A DNA stretch of 21,741 bases from an uncultured Ideonella sp. (GTDB taxonomy: Bacteria; Pseudomonadota; Gammaproteobacteria; Burkholderiales; Burkholderiaceae), in contig CAMLGG010000063.1 in NCBI GenBank assembly GCA_946479475.1, positions 1 through 21,741 on the forward strand, given 5' to 3'. Position 1 is the stretch's first letter, and each line of letters opens with the position of its first letter. The position numbers and the translations under genes are program-made. The notes below the pieces were generated by a model. The model saw only the letters and a list, made by a program, of their open reading frames with translations. It had not been told where the DNA came from and searched no databases. This document shows positions 3,921 to 21,741 of this stretch, piece by piece.

Positions 3921-3942
3921 CGGTCCTGACGAATCAGGACCG
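3921..3942. terminator. Hairpin between convergent genes, probable bidirectional terminator
   Basis: A perfect 9-bp inverted repeat, CGGTCCTGA and TCAGGACCG, is separated by the tetraloop CGAA. It lies 16 bases after the secreted-protein stop and overlaps the last codons and the TGA of the sigma-factor gene. There is no T-run on either side, so termination efficiency is uncertain. Confidence 0.5.
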
Positions 3943-5214
3943 TGCGCGAGAGATCAGCAGGGCCCTCTCCCGCTCGTTCTTCGCCAGCCCGGCTGCCCGC
4001 AAGAACTCTTCCCGGGCTTCTTCGTCGCGACCGAGCCTGGCCAGCAAGTCGCCGCGCACCGCCGGCAGCCACTGGTAGCTCTTGAGAGCGGGTTCGTCGA
4101 TCAGGGTATCGACCATCGCCAGGCCCGCCGAAGGGCCGAAGGCCATGGCGACGGCCACCGCACGGTTGAGCTCGACCACCGGCGAAGGGGTGACCTGCGC
4201 CAGGGCGTCGTAAAGGGCCGCGATGCCGGCCCAGTCGGTGGCCTCGGCGTGGTGTGCACGTGCATGGCATGCAGCGATCGCGGCCTGCAGCGCGTACGGC
4301 CCGAGCGGCTGGCCCTGCGCGGCACTCAGCTGCTCGGCGCGCGAGAGCGCAGCCAGGCCGCGGCGGATGAGCAGGTGGTCCCAGCGGGCGCGGTTCTGGT
4401 CCGCCAGCAGCACGGGGCGGCCCTGCTCGTCGGTGCGGGCGGCCGTGCGGGACGCCTGAAGCTCCAGCAGGGCCACCAGTCCGTGCACCTCGGGCTCTTC
4501 GGGCGCGAGCTCGGCCAGGATGCGCGCCAGGCGCAGCGCCTCGTCGCACAGGGCGGGGCGCATCCAGTCGTCGCCGGCGGTGGCGGTGTAGCCCTCGTTG
4601 AAGATCAGGTAGACGACCTCCAGCACCGAGGCCAGGCGGGGGGCCAGCTCCTCGCCGCGGGGCACTTCGAAGGGCACGCGCGCCTCGGCGAGCGTGCGCT
4701 TGGCGCGGACGATGCGCTGGGCGATCGTCGGCTCGGGCACCAGGCTCGCGCGGGCGATCTCGCCGGTGGTCAATCCGCCCAGCAGCTTCAGCGTCAACGC
4801 CACCCGCGCGTCGGGTGAAAGCAGCGGGTGGCAGGCGGTGAAGACCAGCCGCAGCAGGTCGTCGCCGATGTCGTCCTGCCTGGCTGCATCCAGGGCGTCG
4901 ACGAAGTCCGGCACGACCAGCGCCTCGCGGGCCTCCAGGTCCAGCCCTATCTGCTCGAGCTTGGCGGCGAGGTTCTTGTCCCGCCGCAGCCTGTCGAGGG
5001 CGCGGTGCTTGGCGGTGGTCATGAGCCAAGCCCCGGGATTGGCGGGCACGCCGTCGGAAGGCCAGTGCTCCAGGGCGGCGACGAGGGCATCCTGTGCGAG
5101 TTCCTCGGCCAGGCCGATGTCGCGGACCATGCGCGCGACGCCGGCCACGATCTTGGCCTGCTCGATGCGCCAGACGGCGGCGATGGCCTCATGGGTGGTG
5201 CGCTCGGTGGGCAT
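3934..5214 (-). CDS. ECF42-type RNA polymerase sigma factor with C-terminal TPR-like extension
   Basis: This is a sigma factor of the ECF42 group (SigJ-like, DUF6596 family), 426 residues long against about 200 for a minimal ECF sigma factor. Region 2 spans roughly residues 10-80 (AEELAQDALVAALEHWP, then NPGAWLMTTAKHRALDRLRR). Region 4 spans about 115-180 and holds LLGGLTTGEIARASLVPEPTIAQRIVRAKRTL. The remaining half (VVYLIFNEGYTATAGDDWMRPALCDEALRLAR onward) is the helical TPR-like extension that marks this group. It is known from other ECF42 members to be needed for activity, and these have no classical anti-sigma factor. It lies 12 bases after a DGPF protein gene, the usual partner, so the two are probably co-transcribed from the promoter at 5676-5702. 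No Shine-Dalgarno sequence is evident before the ATG at 5214. Confidence 0.93.
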   Translation of the reverse strand: MPTERTTHEAIAAVWRIEQAKIVAGVARMVRDIGLAEELAQDALVAALEHWPSDGVPANPGAWLMTTAKHRALDRLRRDKNLAAKLEQIGLDLEAREALVVPDFVDALDAARQDDIGDDLLRLVFTACHPLLSPDARVALTLKLLGGLTTGEIARASLVPEPTIAQRIVRAKRTLAEARVPFEVPRGEELAPRLASVLEVVYLIFNEGYTATAGDDWMRPALCDEALRLARILAELAPEEPEVHGLVALLELQASRTAARTDEQGRPVLLADQNRARWDHLLIRRGLAALSRAEQLSAAQGQPLGPYALQAAIAACHARAHHAEATDWAGIAALYDALAQVTPSPVVELNRAVAVAMAFGPSAGLAMVDTLIDEPALKSYQWLPAVRGDLLARLGRDEEAREEFLRAAGLAKNERERALLISRARS

Positions 5215-5226
5215 CGTTCGTGGAGG

Positions 5227-5640
5227 TCAGCGGCGCGCCGCTTCCAGATCCTTGAATCGCTGGACGGACCCGTCCGCAGCGAAGTCTTCCAGCTCGTACA
5301 GCGGGCGCACCTCGATCTCGCCTTCGACGGCCTCGCCGAAAGGCGCCGGGAAGCGCCGTGCCCATTCCACCGCCTCTTCGCGCGACCGGGCCTGGATCAG
5401 CGTGTAGCCGGCAATGAGTTCCTTGGTTTCGGCAAACGGCCCATCGACGACCGTCGGGCGGCCCTGGTGATAGCGCACCCGAAAACCCTGTGCGCTCGGC
5501 TTCAACCCGTTGGCGTCCAGAAGGACGCCCGCCTGGGCGAGCTTCTCGTGGTAGGCGGCCATGGCGGCCATGAGGCCTTCCTCCGGCATCGCGCCCGATT
5601 CGCTCTGCGCGTTGGCGCGCACCATGATCATGAATCGCAT
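5227..5640 (-). CDS. YCII/DGPF-domain protein, ECF42 partner
   Basis: This is a 137-residue YCII-related (DGPF) protein. The frame is open further upstream, but the ATG at 5640 is preceded by AGAAGGAGAG at ideal spacing and gives the family start MRFMIMV. The signature DGPFAETKE begins at residue 66, within a ferredoxin-like alpha/beta fold (…YHEKLAQAGVLLDANGL…, then RPTVVDGPFAETKELIAGYTLIQ). It ends in the usual LYELEDF segment. The biochemical role of DGPF proteins is unknown; genomically they are the standard partners and targets of ECF42 sigma factors. It probably forms an operon with the downstream sigma gene, under autoregulation through the motif at 5676-5702. Confidence 0.9.
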   Translation of the reverse strand: MRFMIMVRANAQSESGAMPEEGLMAAMAAYHEKLAQAGVLLDANGLKPSAQGFRVRYHQGRPTVVDGPFAETKELIAGYTLIQARSREEAVEWARRFPAPFGEAVEGEIEVRPLYELEDFAADGSVQRFKDLEAARR

Positions 5641-5675
5641 CGCCACTCTCCTTCTTTGTCGGCTGCTATCGACAC

Positions 5676-5702
5676 GACGAAGAAGTGCAACGGATTTCGA
5701 CA
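5676..5702 (-). promoter_or_regulatory. Predicted ECF42-type promoter (TGTCGA-N17-CGTC)
   Basis: On the minus strand TGTCGA (5702-5697) is followed after 17 bases by CGTC (5679-5676). From memory, the published ECF42 target consensus is TGTCGA at -35 and CGA/TC at -10, so this is an exact match. Transcription would start near 5670, about 30 bases before the DGPF gene at 5640, with the Shine-Dalgarno in between. This predicts direct autoregulation of the DGPF-sigma pair. A second TGTCGA at 5674-5669 has no partner -10 element. Confidence 0.65.
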
Positions 5703-5728
5703 CGGCCGGATGCGACCGTGCCCGGCCG

Positions 5729-6094
5729 TCAGGCGTTGGATTCGTCGTAGCAGGGCGACGCCGGCCGCACTTCCACCGTCGCCCATTCGGCCGCCGGGCA
5801 GCGCTCGGCGATGGCCAGGGCCTCTTCCGGGCCGGCGCAGTCGACCAGGTAGAAGCCACCGACCATTTCCTTCGCCTCCGCGAAGGGCCCGTCCAGCAGC
5901 TGACGCTTGCCGCCGCGCACCTGCACGCGCGTGGCCTGCTTCAGCGTGGCGAGCGACTCGACCGCCAGCAGCTTGCCTTCGGCCTCGAGCTCGCCGGCGA
6001 AGCGGCGCATCCGGGCGTAGGCCTCCTCGCCTTCGGCACGGGTGCGGGTGGCACGCTGGCCGGTGGGCTCGACGATCATCAGCATGTAGCGCAT
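5729..6094 (-). CDS. Second YCII/DGPF-domain protein
   Basis: This is a 121-residue YCII-related protein, paralogous to the downstream DGPF protein. The start MRYMLMIVEP at 6094 is the family-typical one; an in-frame ATG four codons upstream (6106, MEPT) is an alternative with GAGG directly against it. DGPFAEAKE begins at residue 68, followed by MVGGFYLVDCAGPEEALAIAERCP and a WATVEVRP strand, as in the family. It is first in the minus-strand cluster, 88 bases ahead of the second DGPF gene. I find no good ECF42 promoter in front of it (best is GGTCGA at 6175-6170, without a -10 partner), so it may be expressed independently. It is divergent from the cobalamin adenosyltransferase gene. Confidence 0.88.
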   Translation of the reverse strand: MRYMLMIVEPTGQRATRTRAEGEEAYARMRRFAGELEAEGKLLAVESLATLKQATRVQVRGGKRQLLDGPFAEAKEMVGGFYLVDCAGPEEALAIAERCPAAEWATVEVRPASPCYDESNA

Positions 6095-6819: not shown

Positions 6820-7950
<1,131 letters not shown>

Positions 7951-7988
7951 CGGCTGGATCTCCTGGTGGGCTTCGGCGCCCGCCGGCG

Positions 7989-8016
7989 AAAAAAAACCGC
8001 CGGGGCTGCCGGCGGT
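7989..8016 (-). terminator. Intrinsic terminator (attenuator) in the aroG leader
   Basis: On the minus strand an 8-bp perfect GC stem, ACCGCCGG (8016-8009) and CCGGCGGT (8003-7996), has the loop CAGCC and is followed by a run of seven further T residues (7995-7989). It is a canonical Rho-independent terminator, but it lies upstream of aroG (38 bases before its ATG), not after a gene. A competing pairing is possible: CGGCGG inside the leader ORF (8077-8072) can pair with CCGCCG of the 5' arm, which would block the terminator. Confidence 0.85.
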
Positions 8017-8045
8017 CTCTTGGGGGTGTTCGCTTCGCTGTGATC

Positions 8046-8126
8046 TCAGGTGCGTGCGATTGCCTTCCCAGCCGCCGATCGGGGCGAGAACCAAAAGTAC
8101 GCAAAGATAAAGAGCGTGGTACGCAT
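8046..8126 (-). CDS. aroG leader peptide, Phe/Tyr/Trp-rich (attenuation)
   Basis: A 26-codon ORF lies in the aroG 5' region, MRTTLFIFAYFWF then SPRSAAGKAIART and TGA. Residues 6-13 are FIFAYFWF: four Phe, one Tyr and one Trp in eight codons, the classic signature of attenuator leader peptides such as PheL. It ends 29 bases before the terminator stem. Model: a ribosome stalled at scarce aromatic codons leaves CGGCGG (codons 17-19) free to pair with the terminator's 5' arm, so aroG is transcribed. A ribosome that reaches the stop codon masks this segment and the terminator forms. No strong Shine-Dalgarno is seen; TACATT (8142-8137) could place the transcript start about 4 bases before the ATG. 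A GTG one codon upstream is an alternative start. The role is inferred, the ORF and hairpin are seen. Confidence 0.82.
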   Translation of the reverse strand: MRTTLFIFAYFWFSPRSAAGKAIART

Positions 8127-8136
8127 CACGGCGGCA

Positions 8137-8142
8137 AATGTA
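8137..8142 (-). promoter_or_regulatory. -10-like hexamer for the aroG leader transcript
   Basis: TACATT on the minus strand, 10 bases before the leader-peptide ATG, is the best -10 candidate in the 79-base divergent gap to the sulfatase gene. No good -35 is seen. The resulting leader, about 140 nt to the end of the terminator, would have normal attenuator length. Confidence 0.3.
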
Positions 8143-8205
8143 GCATGTCGCCCGCCGGAGGGCCCTTGCTGAAGTCTCCGGGGACCAACAGGGAAGGAAC
8201 CCAAG

Positions 8206-9615
8206 ATGAGGCGGCGAGAGCTATTGCACGTGGCGGCCTTGATGGCGGCCGTGACCGGTTGCGGCGGGGGCGGGTCGTCTGCGCCCGTGGCCTCGGAGCC
8301 TCCACCGCCACCGCCGCCACCCCCACCCCCGCCACCCCCACCCCCGCCACCGCCGCCACCGCCTCCCAACGTCCTGTTCGTCTCGATCGACGACCTCAAC
8401 GACTGGGTCGGCTTTCTCGGCGGGCACCCGCAGGTCCGGACGCCGGCGCTGGACGCCCTGGCCGCTCGCTCCTCCGTCTTCACGCGTGCCTACTGCGCCG
8501 CGCCGGTGTGCTCGGCGTCGCGCGCGACCGTGCTCTCGGGCCTTTCGGTGGAGAACACCCACGTCTACTACAACGACCAGACCTTCCTGGGCGTGAACCC
8601 TGGCAAGAAGCAGGTGGACGACATGTTCGCCGACGCCGGCTACCTGAAGCAGCGCTATGGCAAGGTCGACCACTTCTACTCGACCCATGTCGAGCAGCCG
8701 CTGCCGTCGCCCATGCCGTACGCCAACAAGGTCTGCGCGGCGCCCATAGGAGAAGGGGCCTTCGACTGGGGCCCGGCGCCGGGCGGCGACGAGGCGCAGC
8801 CGGACTACCAGTACGCCCAGAGCGGGATCGACTTCCTGCAGGCCCGGCACGACAAGCCCTTCTTCCTGGCTGTCGGGTTCGCGCGTCCGCACGTCGGCTG
8901 GTACGTCCCTCAGCGATTCTTCGACATGTACCCGAAGGAGACGCTGCAGTTGCCGCCCGCGCCGCCGGACGATCTCGACGACCTCGGGCCGGCCGGCAAG
9001 GCCATTGCCCTGCAGTTCAAGTTCCACGACTGCATCACGCGCCAGAACCTGTGGGCCGATGCCGTGCAGGCCTATCTCGCGAGCATCAGCTGGGCCGACA
9101 GCCAGCTCGCGCGGCTGATCGCCGCCCTGGACGCCAGCGTCTACAAGGACAACACCATCCTGGTCGTCTGGAGCGACCACGGATTCCACCTCGGGGAGAA
9201 GTTCCACTGGCACAAGCTGGCCCTGTGGGAAAGGGCCACGCGGGTCCCCCTGCTGATCCGCCTTCCCGGCCAGGCCGCGAGGACCGACATCGACGCACTG
9301 GTCAGCCTGCGGGACCTGGCGCCCACGCTGCTGGAGCGCTGCGGGGTTGCTCCGGCCTACGCGATGGACGGCCGAAGCTTGAGTCCATTGCTGGCCGACC
9401 CGCACACGGCCTGGGACCATCCGGTGCTGACGACCAAGGACCAGCACGACCACGCCATCCGGACCGCCGACTGGCGCTACATCCGGTATGCCAGTGGCGA
9501 GCGTGAGCTCTATGACGAGAACGCCGACCCTGGCGAGCTGCGCAACCTTTCCGGTGACAGCCGATACGAATCCGTGATGGTGCAGCTCGATGCGCTGATG
9601 CCGCCCAGGCCCTGA
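8206..9615 (+). CDS. Sulfatase lipoprotein with 23-residue polyproline linker
   Basis: This is an exported type I sulfatase of the arylsulfatase/iduronate-2-sulfatase family, predicted to hydrolyse a sulfate ester outside the cytoplasm. The 469-residue protein begins RRRELL (a Tat-like twin arginine) and a hydrophobic stretch with the lipobox VTGC (Cys19), then GGGG and 23 prolines (32-54). The sulfatase domain starts at once with NVLFVSIDDLNDW (metal ligands D62, D63). C102 in CSASRATVLSG is the residue converted to formylglycine; R106, K153, H229 and D324-H325 in VWSDHGFHLGEK also fit the active site. The ATG at 8206 follows AAGGAA. No formylglycine-generating enzyme gene is in the window, so maturation must be supplied elsewhere. 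Substrate is unknown. It is divergent from the aroG leader and followed by a 210-base gap. Confidence 0.92.
   Translation: MRRRELLHVAALMAAVTGCGGGGSSAPVASEPPPPPPPPPPPPPPPPPPPPPPPNVLFVSIDDLNDWVGFLGGHPQVRTPALDALAARSSVFTRAYCAAPVCSASRATVLSGLSVENTHVYYNDQTFLGVNPGKKQVDDMFADAGYLKQRYGKVDHFYSTHVEQPLPSPMPYANKVCAAPIGEGAFDWGPAPGGDEAQPDYQYAQSGIDFLQARHDKPFFLAVGFARPHVGWYVPQRFFDMYPKETLQLPPAPPDDLDDLGPAGKAIALQFKFHDCITRQNLWADAVQAYLASISWADSQLARLIAALDASVYKDNTILVVWSDHGFHLGEKFHWHKLALWERATRVPLLIRLPGQAARTDIDALVSLRDLAPTLLERCGVAPAYAMDGRSLSPLLADPHTAWDHPVLTTKDQHDHAIRTADWRYIRYASGERELYDENADPGELRNLSGDSRYESVMVQLDALMPPRP
8299..8367 (+). repeat. CCN repeat tract encoding 23 prolines
   Basis: 23 consecutive proline codons mix CCA, CCC, CCG and CCT. 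The core is a perfect tandem duplication of the 15-base unit CCACCCCCACCCCCG (8317-8331 and 8332-8346), bracketed by CCACCGCCG-type units. This points to growth by in-frame slippage or duplication. Confidence 0.9.
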
Positions 9616-14061: not shown

Positions 14062-15525
14062 TCAGGCGGTGCCGCCGACCGTGATCCCGTCGATGCGCAG
14101 CGTCGGCTGGCCGACGCCCACCGGCACGCTCTGGCCGTCCTTGCCGCAGGTGCCCACGCCCGTGTCGAGCTCCAAGTCGTTGCCGATCATGCTGACGCGG
14201 GTCATCGCCTCGGGGCCGTTGCCGATGAGCGTCGCGCCCTTGACCGGGTAGAGGATCTTGCCGTTCTCGACCCAGAAGGCCTCCGAGGCCGAGAAGACGA
14301 ACTTGCCGCTGGTGATGTCCACCTGGCCGCCGCCGAAGTTGGTGGCGTACAGGCCCCGCTTGATGCTGGCGACGATCTCTTCCTTGGACTTGTCGCCGGC
14401 CAGCATGTAGGTGTTGGTCATGCGGGGCATGGGCACGTGGGCGTAGCTCTCGCGGCGGCCGTTGCCGGTCGGCTTGACGCCCATCAGGCGGGCATTGAGG
14501 CTGTCCTGCATGTAGCCGCGCAGGATGCCGTCCTCGATCAGCACGTTCTTCTGCGTCGGGTTGCCCTCGTCGTCGACGTTGAGCGAGCCGCGGCGGTCGG
14601 TGAGCGTGCCGTCGTCGAGCACGGTGACGCCCTTGGCCGCGACGCGCTGACCCATGCGGCCGGAGAAGGTGGACGAGCCCTTGCGGTTGAAATCGCCCTC
14701 CAGGCCGTGGCCGACGGCCTCGTGCAGCATCACGCCGGGCCAGCCCGAGCCGAGCACCACGGTCATCTCGCCGGCAGGGGCCGGGCGCGACTCGAGGTTG
14801 GTCAGCGCCGCGTTGACCGCCTGCTCGACATACTCGACCAGCTGCGCCTCCTGGAAGTAGCCCAGGCCGAAGCGGCCGCCGCCGCCGCCGGAGCCGATCT
14901 CCCGGCGGCCGTTCTGCTCGGCGATCACGGTGACGGACAAACGCACCAGCGGCCGGACGTCCGCGGCGCGGGTGCCGTCCGCGCGGGCCACCATCACCAC
15001 GTCGTACTCGGCGGCCAGGCCGGCCATCACCTGCACCACGCGCGGGTCGCGCGCGCGGGCGAGCTTCTCGACGCGCTCCAGCAGGGCGACCTTCTGCGTG
15101 CTGTCCAGCGTGGCGATCGGGTCCATCGGCGCGTACAGGGTGCGGCTGCCGGCGACCTTGGTCGGCCCGCCGACCCGCACGCGCCGGCTCTGGCCGGCCG
15201 AGGCGATGGCGCGAACCGTGCGAGCGGCGTCCAGCAGCGCCGCCTCGGAGATGTCGTCCGAGTAGGCGAAGGCCGTCTTCTCGCCGGCGACGGCGCGCAC
15301 GCCCACCCCCTGGTCGATGGAGAAGCTGCCGCTCTTGACGATGCCCTCCTCGAGGCTCCAGCCCTCGTGGCGGGTGTACTGGAAGTACAGGTCCGCGTCG
15401 TCCACGCGGTGCTCGGCGATCTCGCCTAGAGCGCGCTGAAGCGTGGCCTCGCTGAGTTGGTAGGGATCCAGCAGCAGCCCTTGGGCCACGGCCAGGCGCT
15501 CGAGGGTCGGTTCGCGGGCGATCAT
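14062..15525 (-). CDS. tldD: Metalloprotease TldD
   Basis: This is a 487-residue TldD/PmbA-family protein. With its partner TldE (PmbA) it forms a cytoplasmic zinc protease that degrades unfolded peptides and matures some modified peptides such as microcin B17, and it affects CcdA stability. The zinc-binding HEAVGH (H268, E269, H273) is intact, as are GSGGGGGRFG before it and the C-terminal GTCGKDGQ segment. Length matches E. coli TldD (481). The ATG at 15525 gives the family start (…LLLDPYQLSEATLQRAL). It has no Shine-Dalgarno but TACAAT 6 bases upstream. The partner TldE gene is not in the window. The GSCFA gene follows at 13 bases. Confidence 0.95.
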   Translation of the reverse strand: MIAREPTLERLAVAQGLLLDPYQLSEATLQRALGEIAEHRVDDADLYFQYTRHEGWSLEEGIVKSGSFSIDQGVGVRAVAGEKTAFAYSDDISEAALLDAARTVRAIASAGQSRRVRVGGPTKVAGSRTLYAPMDPIATLDSTQKVALLERVEKLARARDPRVVQVMAGLAAEYDVVMVARADGTRAADVRPLVRLSVTVIAEQNGRREIGSGGGGGRFGLGYFQEAQLVEYVEQAVNAALTNLESRPAPAGEMTVVLGSGWPGVMLHEAVGHGLEGDFNRKGSSTFSGRMGQRVAAKGVTVLDDGTLTDRRGSLNVDDEGNPTQKNVLIEDGILRGYMQDSLNARLMGVKPTGNGRRESYAHVPMPRMTNTYMLAGDKSKEEIVASIKRGLYATNFGGGQVDITSGKFVFSASEAFWVENGKILYPVKGATLIGNGPEAMTRVSMIGNDLELDTGVGTCGKDGQSVPVGVGQPTLRIDGITVGGTA

Positions 15526-17443: not shown

Positions 17444-18052
17444 ATGCTCGAAGCCCGCATCCAGCAGCAGTTCTTCGAATGCGCGGACCTGATGTACCAG
17501 CTCGCGGAAGGTCTTTCGCGACCGATCGCCGAAGGCGCGCAAGCCATCGTGGGCTGCCTGACCGCCGGCGGCAAGCTGCTCGCCTGCGGGCAGGGCGGTG
17601 GCCAGTGGCTGGCGCAGTGGTTCGCTTCGGCGCTGATGCTGCGCTTCGAACGCGAGCGCCCTCCGCTGGCCGCACTGGCCCTCGGGCCGGCGCTCGCGAC
17701 GCCACTGGTGCCGCACGACGAACTGGCCGCCGACCCGTCTCTCGCGGTCGCCCTGCAATTGCGGGCCCTGGGGCAGCCCGGCGACCTGCTGCTGATCTGC
17801 TCGGCCAGCGACGACGAGCCGGCGATGATGGCGGCCGTCCGCGAGGCGCACGCCAAGGAGATGAGCGTGCTGCTGCTGAGCGGCCCCGTCACCGAGGGCG
17901 CGACCCTGCCCGCCCTGCTGGGCGAGACCGACACCTGGATCACCGTGCCGCACGAGCGGCTGGCACGCGTCCACGAGCTGCACCTGCTGGTGCTGCACGC
18001 CCTGTGCGATGCGATCGACCTTCAACTGCTGGGCGACGCCGAGCCGGCCTGA
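17444..18052 (+). CDS. diaA: SIS-domain protein DiaA-like (DnaA initiator-associating)
   Basis: This is a 202-residue SIS-domain protein of the GmhA/DiaA group. By synteny between yraN and dolP it is most likely DiaA, which forms tetramers that bind DnaA and promote initiation at oriC in E. coli (196 residues). The SIS core is seen at LLACGQGGGQWLAQWF (45-60), RFERERPPLAALAL (67-80) and LLLICSASDDEPAMMAAV, with the C-terminal ELHLLVLHALCDAID typical of the GmhA/DiaA pair. The alternative, phosphoheptose isomerase (GmhA), is less likely from gene order. No heptose genes are nearby. Confidence 0.88.
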   Translation: MLEARIQQQFFECADLMYQLAEGLSRPIAEGAQAIVGCLTAGGKLLACGQGGGQWLAQWFASALMLRFERERPPLAALALGPALATPLVPHDELAADPSLAVALQLRALGQPGDLLLICSASDDEPAMMAAVREAHAKEMSVLLLSGPVTEGATLPALLGETDTWITVPHERLARVHELHLLVLHALCDAIDLQLLGDAEPA

Positions 18053-18107
18053 CCCAGTCCCTGCACCGGCCGGCGCGCCGATTGCCCCATTCCACCCACG
18101 CACTGAC

Positions 18108-18740
18108 ATGACCCAAGCCCAACGCCCCCGCCTGCCCTCGTCGACCCTGGCCACCCTCATCGTCGCTGGTGCCGCCAGCGTGCTGATGAGTGCGTGTGCA
18201 CCGATCCTGATCGGTGGCGCAGCCGTCTCCGGCGCGCTGATGTATACCGACCGCCGCACCTCCGGCGCGCAACTCGAGGACGAGGCGATCGAGCTCAAGG
18301 CCGGCCCTCGCCTGAAGGAGGCGCTGGGCGACCGGGCCCACCTGAACGTGACGAGCTACAACCGCCTGGTGCTGATCACCGGCGAGGTCGGCAGCGACGC
18401 CGACCGCGAGGCCGCCGAAAAGGCGGTAGGGGCCATCGACAACGTGCGTTCGGTCGTCAACGAGGCGGCGGTCACGATGCTGACCTCGCTGACGGCGCGC
18501 TCGAACGATGCGCTGCTGACGACCAAGGTCAAGGCGGCCTTCATCGATGACGGCTACATCCAGGCCAATGCCGTCAAGGTCACCACCGAGCGCGGCATCG
18601 TCTACCTGATGGGCCGGGTGACGGAGAAGGAGGCCGCCAAGGCCACCGAAGTCGCGCGCGGCGTCAGCGGCGTGCAGAAGGTCGTGCGCGTCTTCGAGAT
18701 CATCAGCGACGCGGAGCTGAAGGCCCTCGAGTCGAAGTGA
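18108..18740 (+). CDS. dolP: Dual BON-domain outer-membrane lipoprotein DolP (YraP)
   Basis: This is a 210-residue lipoprotein with two BON domains, matching DolP (YraP), which sits at the inner face of the outer membrane and supports envelope integrity and BAM function. The signal sequence ends LMSAC with lipidated Cys30. A Gly/Ala stretch with the DRRTSGAQLEDEAIE linker follows, as in E. coli. BON1 spans about 61-125 (HLNVTSYNRLVLITGEV) and BON2 about 134-198 (TTKVKAAFIDDGYIQANAVKVTTERGIVYLMGRVTEKEA). The ATG at 18108 gives the signal peptide directly; the frame upstream overlaps diaA. It is last gene of the yraN-diaA-dolP group, ending at a hairpin. Confidence 0.94.
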   Translation: MTQAQRPRLPSSTLATLIVAGAASVLMSACAPILIGGAAVSGALMYTDRRTSGAQLEDEAIELKAGPRLKEALGDRAHLNVTSYNRLVLITGEVGSDADREAAEKAVGAIDNVRSVVNEAAVTMLTSLTARSNDALLTTKVKAAFIDDGYIQANAVKVTTERGIVYLMGRVTEKEAAKATEVARGVSGVQKVVRVFEIISDAELKALESK

Positions 18741-20836: not shown

Positions 20837-21741
20837 TCAGCCCGGGAAGTTCTCGGGGAACTTCGCCTTGACGCGGGCCTCGGCCGCGCTGATCACGTTT
20901 CGGCGCACCAGGTCCGCCAGGCACTGGTCGAGGGTCTGCATGCCCAGGTTCTGGCCGGTCTGGATCGACGAGTACATCTGGGCGATCTTGTTCTCGCGGA
21001 TCAGGTTGCGGATGGCCGCGGTGCCCAGCATGATCTCGTGCGCCGCCACGCGGCCCGAGCCGTCCTTCGTCTTGCACAGCGTCTGCGAGATGATGGCCTG
21101 CATCGACTCGGAAAGCATCGCCCGCACCATGTCCTTCTCGGCCGCGGGGAAGACGTCGACCACGCGGTCGATGGTCTTGGCGGCGCTGGAGGTGTGCAGG
21201 GTGCCGAAGACCAGGTGGCCCGTCTCGGCGGCGGTGAGCGCCAGGCGGATCGTCTCCAGGTCGCGCAGCTCGCCCACCAGGATCGCGTCCGGGTCCTCGC
21301 GCAGCGCGGCGCGCAGGGCGTTGGAGAAGCTCAGCGTGTGCGGGCCGACTTCACGCTGGTTGACCAGGCATTTCTTGGACTCGTGCACGAACTCGATCGG
21401 GTCCTCGAGCGTCAGCACGTGGCCGTACTCGTTCTCGTTCAGGTGGTCGATGATCGCGGCCAGCGTCGTCGACTTGCCGGAGCCGGTCGGCCCGGTGACC
21501 AGGACCAGGCCCCGTGGCTTCATGGCCAGCTCGGCGAACACCGGCGGGCAGTTCAGCTGGGCCAGCGTCAGGATCTTCGACGGGATGGTCCGGAAGACCG
21601 AGGCCGCGCCGCGGTTCTGGTGGAAGGCGTTGACCCGGAAGCGCGCCAGGCCCTGGACCTCGAAGCTGAAGTCGCACTCCAGCGTGTCCTCGTACTGCTT
21701 GCGCTGGGTGTCGTTCATGATGTCGTACACCATGGCGTGCA
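20837..21741 (-). CDS. pilT: Type IV pilus twitching motility ATPase PilT, 5'-truncated by window edge
   Basis: This is the C-terminal 301 or so residues of PilT, the main retraction ATPase of type IV pili. The frame is still open at the window edge. PilT is normally about 345 residues, and the ATG at 21733 is an internal Met (HAMVYDIMND), so roughly 45 residues are missing. Counted from that Met, Walker A GPTGSGKST is at 81-89, followed by LEDPIEFVHE, the Walker B region DAILVGELRDLET and the His box AETGHLVFGTLHTSSA. The conserved C-terminal segment AAIRNLIRENKIAQMYSSIQTG is present. It is followed after 13 bases by pilU. Confidence 0.96.
   Translation of the reverse strand, partial: HAMVYDIMNDTQRKQYEDTLECDFSFEVQGLARFRVNAFHQNRGAASVFRTIPSKILTLAQLNCPPVFAELAMKPRGLVLVTGPTGSGKSTTLAAIIDHLNENEYGHVLTLEDPIEFVHESKKCLVNQREVGPHTLSFSNALRAALREDPDAILVGELRDLETIRLALTAAETGHLVFGTLHTSSAAKTIDRVVDVFPAAEKDMVRAMLSESMQAIISQTLCKTKDGSGRVAAHEIMLGTAAIRNLIRENKIAQMYSSIQTGQNLGMQTLDQCLADLVRRNVISAAEARVKAKFPENFPG

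Follow-up and report, generated by a model that had tools for sequence, protein, structure and literature searches.

How is aroG, the gene of a DAHP synthase at the entry of the aromatic pathway, controlled when it is preceded by a short open reading frame (ORF) that is rich in aromatic codons and by a terminator? In E. coli, the DAHP synthase genes are controlled by the TyrR and TrpR repressors. For the DNA analyzed here, a stretch of 21,741 nt from an uncultured Ideonella sp. (in the following, the window), an earlier note had proposed an attenuator in front of aroG that senses Phe, Tyr, and Trp jointly. The elements on which this proposal was built are all present: the ORF of 26 codons with FIFAYFWF, for which coordinates and residue counts were exact on rechecking, the perfect 8-bp stem with a T-run exactly 38 bases from the aroG ATG, and CGGCGG in codons 17–19, which is complementary to the 5' arm of the terminator. 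The leader ORF is translated as MRTTLFIFAYFWFSPRSAAGKAIART, and its codons 6–13 include four Phe, one Tyr, and one Trp codon. The terminator has the sequence ACCGCCGG(CAGCC)CCGGCGGT (8016–7996, minus strand), and the 38 bases are counted from the end of the T-run to the ATG at 7950. The AroG protein of the window scored 529 bits with TIGR00034 (cut-off 173) and is 84–85% identical to the AroG proteins of an uncultured betaproteobacterium and of an Ideonella MAG (L001, L016), which makes a betaproteobacterial origin of the window probable. The features are compiled in Table 1. The intergenic gap of the aroG leader is shared with a divergent sulfatase-like gene, which has a long Pro-rich stretch past its N-terminus. 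Directly past the T-run, CGCCGGCGGGCG at 7977–7988 (minus strand) could also pair with CCGCCGG of the 5' arm.

Table 1. Features of the aroG leader region and further genes in the window.
Feature	Position	Strand	Remark
Extended −10 promoter-like box TGCTACATT	8137..8145	minus	TGnTAnnnT
Alternative start of the leader ORF	8129-8127	minus	in-frame GTG
Leader ORF, 26 codons + TGA	8126..8046	minus	ATG 8126, TGA 8048-8046
Presumed sensing codons 6–13, F I F A Y F W F	8088..8111	minus	amino acids conserved
Possible segment 1:2 hairpin	8065..8090	minus	TTCTCG 8090-8085 with TGGGAA 8070-8065; single folds, statistically unsupported
Antiterminator segment TCGGCGG (segment 2), codons 17–19	8072..8078	minus	GGCGG conservation
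Terminator 5' arm ACCGCCGG (segment 3), also partner of segment 2	8009..8016	minus	
Terminator 3' arm CCGGCGGT (segment 4)	7996..8003	minus	
T8 run, intrinsic terminator	7989..7996	minus	
Shine-Dalgarno-like AGGAG of aroG	7960..7964	minus	sequence inspection
aroG, DAHP synthase type I, 376 aa, regulated gene	6820..7950	minus	TIGR00034
SpoVR-like gene	5-1348	plus	
GlcD-like gene	1361-2818	minus	below NCBIfam cut-offs
ECF-sigma-like gene	3934-5214	minus	below NCBIfam cut-offs
YCII-domain gene	5227-5859	minus	
Sulfatase-like gene	8206-9615	plus	below NCBIfam cut-offs
PmbA/TldD metallopeptidase gene	14062-15525	minus	
BON-domain gene	18009-18740	plus	
T2SSE ATPase gene	20837-21733	minus	

In the window, antiterminator and terminator are predicted to be mutually alternative folds. 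A transcript ending at 8002, from which most of the 3' arm is absent, was predicted to adopt the antiterminator fold (−25.0 kcal/mol), and a transcript including the 3' arm the terminator fold (−32.5 kcal/mol). The statistics obtained from the window alone were weak: the fold of the 191-nt leader had a z-score of −1.60, the antiterminator duplex was equalled by 8% of the shuffled ORF tails, and a simple promoter and terminator scan of the window detected neither element. These values are barely above chance and would allow for a fortuitous arrangement, namely, a Phe-rich frame that happens to precede an unremarkable terminator in an intergenic gap of high GC content. At the level of sequence, it is the conservation among relatives that is decisive.

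To this end, we used an AroG scan, the best 80 of whose 588 confirmed loci, which represent close relatives only, were analyzed together with the window (81 sequences). ORFs of 10–36 aa with an ATG, GTG, or TTG start and at least four aromatic residues in nine codons, located within 330 nt upstream of aroG, were regarded as leader candidates. Such an aromatic-run ORF was found upstream of aroG in 67 of the 81 sequences, and in 66 of these 67 candidates a hairpin with a T-run, that is, the intrinsic terminator expected of an attenuator between leader ORF and structural gene, precedes aroG; the 5' arm includes CCGCC in each of the 66. The sole candidate lacking a terminator (L078) appears to be spurious. 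A leader ORF with codons for the end products of the pathway, likewise expected of an attenuator, is present in the window and in the 66 leaders. Fifteen of the 80 loci show no leader: L026, L029, and L031 (all three Polynucleobacter), L064, L035 and L041 (both Cupriavidus), L046, L049, L050, L052, L070, L074, L076, L078, and L037; the sequence of the last is truncated 43 nt upstream of aroG and thus cannot be judged. At least six aromatic residues in nine codons are present in 62 of the 66 leaders, but in none of the 2,573 other short ATG ORFs of the same loci, a comparison that is biased toward the leaders, since these had been preselected at a minimum of four in nine. The conservation contradicts a fortuitous arrangement, which was therefore rejected as having a practically negligible probability. 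The earlier note had named orthologous leaders lacking the run or the terminator as evidence against its proposal; the orthologues were found to carry both, together with the complementary segment.

The complementary segment deserves closer attention. Downstream of the aromatic run, a GGCGG motif (once GGTGG) is present in 64 of the 66 leaders, the exceptions being L007 and L013. In all 64 it pairs over its full length with the CCGCC in the 5' arm of the terminator. This pairing provides an antiterminator that lies partly within the leader ORF and is incompatible with the terminator, as expected of ribosome-mediated attenuation. The motif is read in frame 0 in 28 leaders, in frame 2 in 35, and in frame 1 in a single one, and is variously translated as Gly-Gly, Ala-Ala, Leu-Ala-Asp, Ala-Val, and others. 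Its retention in 64 of 66 leaders while the frame changes indicates that RNA pairing is selected at this site. The duplex formed by segment 2 was better than 95% of the shuffles in 44 of the 66 leaders, the window not being among them. The flanking bases pointed in the same direction: in a permutation test with 54 distinct sequences, in which relatedness was not removed, the three bases preceding segment 2 matched the respective own 5' arm at 102 of 162 positions versus 85.9 ± 3.7 after permutation (0 of 5,000 as high), and all seven flanking positions gave 169 matches versus 152.3 (1 of 5,000 as high). One position beyond GGCGG, an A in the 5' arm is combined with a T in the 3' arm in 63 of the 64 leaders. 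In 14 of 17 further loci this outer A-T pair of the terminator is replaced by G-C, and segment 2 has a C at this position in 11 of them and a T in three. As judged from the sequences, the pattern is what one segment alternating between antiterminator and terminator should look like. Segment 2 starts 8–17 nt beyond the aromatic run in 60 of the 64 leaders, which is, given the footprint of a stalled ribosome, approximately where such a ribosome would leave it free.

Taken together, the best explanation is a ribosome-mediated transcription attenuator of aroG, a conclusion that we draw with high confidence. Attenuation by ribosome stalling and a choice between antiterminator and terminator is a textbook mechanism. 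In the case of aroG, transcription would begin at, or a few bases from, the start codon of the leader, which the ribosome would translate without a Shine-Dalgarno site. A shortage of charged tRNAs for Phe and Tyr, as well as for Trp in leaders that encode it, would make the ribosome stall at codons 6–13. Segment 2 would then remain available for pairing with the 5' arm of the terminator, and RNA polymerase would continue into aroG. With an ample supply of aromatic amino acids, the ribosome would move over segment 2, the 3:4 hairpin would form, and transcription would end at T8. This arrangement very probably lets the cell switch on the aromatic pathway at a shortage of aromatic amino acids. 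The attenuator reading of the earlier note is thus supported by the orthologous leaders, which share run, terminator, and complementary segment, and also by a promoter-like box upstream of the leader.

The fate of segment 2 behind a ribosome that does not stall is less clear-cut. The stop codon of the leader ends 4–32 nt beyond segment 2 (26 nt in the window), and therefore a ribosome waiting there may leave segment 2 unmasked in many species. A segment 1:2 hairpin would sequester segment 2 in this situation. Consensus folding with RNAalifold yielded 0 pairs for this hairpin, and dinucleotide shuffles of 58 distinct segments gave a mean z-score of −0.51, with p < 0.05 in 5% of the segments and a z-score of 0.1 for the window. 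Permutation of the 1:2 arms resulted in a mean of 11.27, compared to 11.18 for the own arms (625 of 1,000 as high), and 37 of 300 letter shuffles were as high. The 1:2 hairpin, which appears in single folds but was supported by none of these tests, is retained here only as a possible element.

Which amino acids would be sensed? Phe is present in all 66 leaders, Tyr in 65, and Trp in 53. Across 65 loci (window excluded), Phe is encoded by TTT (186) and TTC (99), Tyr by TAC (69) and TAT (50), and Trp occurs 55 times; as Phe and Tyr are each specified by either of their two codons, the aromatic run is, by these sequences, conserved at the amino-acid level. Phe and Tyr codons are near-universal, but Trp is absent from 13 of the 66 leaders, and the joint sensing of all three amino acids that the earlier note had proposed is therefore only an inference. 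The same attenuator might respond only to Phe, perhaps to Phe and Tyr, with the Trp codon as a passenger, an option that comes close to an even chance without reaching it. The lower frequency of Trp would fit such a narrower sensor, as does AroR of Corynebacterium glutamicum, which has the sequence Phe-Tyr-Phe, yet, according to a review, did not respond to Tyr availability (PMC11802643). On the other hand, Trp, where present, usually lies within the run (..YFWF.., ..YFFW..), and it again occurs inside the runs of alphaproteobacterial-type leaders (FWYF, YWYF), which speaks against a passenger.

The promoter-like box and its spacing were likewise conserved. The sequence TGnTAnnnT was found 5–11 nt upstream of the start codon in 40 of the 66 leaders, including that of the window, versus 10 of 6,321 other ATGs in the loci. 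The gap between box and start codon is 6–8 nt in 38 of these 40 leaders and 9–10 nt in the remaining two. A Shine-Dalgarno-like tetramer was detected in 1 of the 66 leaders and in none of the 40 with a box, and no conserved −35 element was found among the 66. In the window, the box is 10 nt away from the ATG and 7 nt from the in-frame GTG, so that translation may in fact begin at GTG 8129. In a second set of 17 loci, which represents another lineage, [G/A]TGACA-17-TAnnnn ends 6–7 nt before the ATG in 13 cases, with TATATG in eight; the exceptions are L152, L154, and L164, for which the scan chose another arrangement, and L163, which has a weaker TTTACA. A −10 box so near to the start codon would place the +1 position at or beside the start codon, and the leader ORF is therefore probably translated leaderless, a feature absent from the earlier note. 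Burkholderia- and Oxalobacteraceae-type leaders have boxes resembling TATAAA or TATAGT, mostly about 25–40 nt upstream, and, by the same box-distance argument, would not be leaderless.

To explore the distribution across genomes, we built a covariance model (R1) from 37 leaders, the window among them. It recovered all 28 held-out leaders with 57–104 bits (L027 was not given to the model) and matched none of 14 leader-lacking loci. In an order draw of 250 genomes, of which the central one (G001) is the genome of a model member (L002) and others may be as well, 112 genomes had a match at E ≤ 0.001, many of them to the terminator only, and 63 had a best match to the whole model at E ≤ 1.5e-6. In 61 of these 63 cases the whole-length match is followed, in the same orientation, by a DAHP synthase match that starts 9–141 bp further downstream. 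Both the recovery of the held-out leaders and this position before aroG are further arguments against a fortuitous arrangement. Matches at E ≤ 1e-6 were found in 9 of 321 genomes of a class draw and in 35 of 299 genomes of a phylum draw, and all 18 places fetched from the latter precede an AroG homolog (57–83% identity). The 16S gene was recovered from three of the six genomes tried; compared among plasmid-borne 16S copies, that of G601 is nearest to Bosea (92.0%) and that of G693 to Pseudosulfitobacter (94.7%), which identifies both, by this marker, as alphaproteobacteria. Thirteen further loci have the leader type of G601 and were assigned to its group by inference. PrrF as a marker for Pseudomonas gave no match anywhere, controls included, and was hence uninformative. 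As far as these sequences indicate, the leader extends beyond the Burkholderiales into some alphaproteobacteria, which had not been part of the earlier note. Among 18 stretches upstream of more distant DAHP synthase paralogs, no combination of an aromatic ORF and a terminator was found: L125 has an ORF that starts with GTG, encodes FFF, and itself contains a hairpin, L126 a Trp-rich ORF and no terminator, and L128, L133, L134, L136, and L137 a hairpin but no such ORF. In G158 and G028 (L114), two tandem DAHP synthase genes are located downstream of the leader.

The close linkage to aroG also bears on a different function, in which the short terminated RNA or the peptide would be the working product in trans and attenuation of aroG would be secondary. 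The seemingly leaderless start, which resembles that of rnTrpL at the trpL start codon, and the conserved aromatic run would be compatible with such a product, and rnTrpL/peTrpL of Sinorhizobium have been reported to act in trans. In contrast, 61 of 63 and 18 of 18 matches are tied to aroG, and the residues encoded by segment 2 vary while the RNA motif is kept, which makes a primary function in trans improbable. An attenuator of aroG thus remains the preferred reading. In its broadest version, which is tentative and which we regard as rather less than probable, it would be a leaderless composite attenuator that reads all three end products, Phe, Tyr, and Trp, at the pathway entry, belongs to an uncatalogued RNA family of many beta- and some alphaproteobacteria, plays the role that TyrR and TrpR have in E. 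coli, and releases an RNA that perhaps acts in trans as well.

Is the leader a member of a known family? The earlier note had suggested a search of Rfam, and with Rfam 15 no named family reached its threshold for the window leader. Phe_leader and Trp_leader also comprise a leader ORF with aromatic codons, a terminator, and an antiterminator, but precede other target genes and respond to one amino acid each. Membership in Phe_leader (RF01859) was rejected because its weak alignment, although spanning the element entirely, scored 19.2 bits (E 0.58), far below the gathering cut-off of 55, and membership in Trp_leader (RF00513) because it was absent at the gathering threshold and among the matches to E 10. 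Further matches below the cut-off were sroD (E 0.88) and isrK (E 4.9). NCBIfam had no model for the six aroG leader peptides that were tried.

Attenuation at a DAHP synthase gene is not new in principle. The AroR leader peptide precedes aroF, a DAHP synthase gene, in C. glutamicum (Neshat et al., 2014, as cited in PMC11802643 and PMC4046766) and shares with the aroG leader the aromatic codons, the ribosome-mediated attenuation, and the target step; it differs in that it belongs to an actinobacterium and has only Phe-Tyr-Phe, with Tyr reported to be irrelevant (PMC11802643), and the two are likened by description. uORFC-13-1, located before aroF in Acholeplasma, is similar in being a Phe-coding upstream ORF with a terminator at a DAHP synthase gene, but is a prediction only, has a ribosome-binding site, and comprises 24 sequences from Acholeplasma and unnamed environmental sources (PMC8632094); according to the same source, aroF of E. 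coli has been the subject of a comparable hypothesis. For operons that comprise a DAHP synthase gene and tyrA, for example in Vibrio, putative attenuators are listed on Merino's prediction website; they share the target, but are predictions only (PMC1173090). The transcript of trpL/rnTrpL in Sinorhizobium meliloti also starts at the leader AUG and is leaderless, but the leader has Trp codons and precedes trpE(G) (PMC7298713, PMC10117765). Upstream ORFs with Phe and Tyr codons at shikimate genes have been depicted as well (PMC6429828, Fig. 6b). In the open-access literature, we recognized no report of an aroG leader peptide for Burkholderiales or alphaproteobacteria, and an earlier description is possible. 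The probable leaderless start and the composite aromatic run are the distinctive features of the aroG leader. The leader may provide a testable account of how the entry of the aromatic pathway is controlled in many Burkholderiales and some alphaproteobacteria, an RNA family to annotate, and, for use in metabolic engineering, a natural sensor of several amino acids whose translation probably starts leaderless.

The two whole-length matches in the order draw that do not precede a DAHP synthase gene were found in G123 (L111:2229-2374, minus strand) and G198 (L112:2125-2275, minus strand). In both, a similar aromatic-rich leader, which is MVTFSVVYNVYFYWYRSSGGAKGC in L111, and a terminator precede an unrelated gene of about 205 aa. 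No Pfam or NCBIfam family matched this gene at cut-off, and its named homologs are mostly hypothetical proteins of Aquitalea, Chromobacterium, and Paludibacterium, one of them with the UniRef label "Type III secretion protein". The presence of the leader suggests that this gene, too, is linked to the supply of aromatic amino acids.
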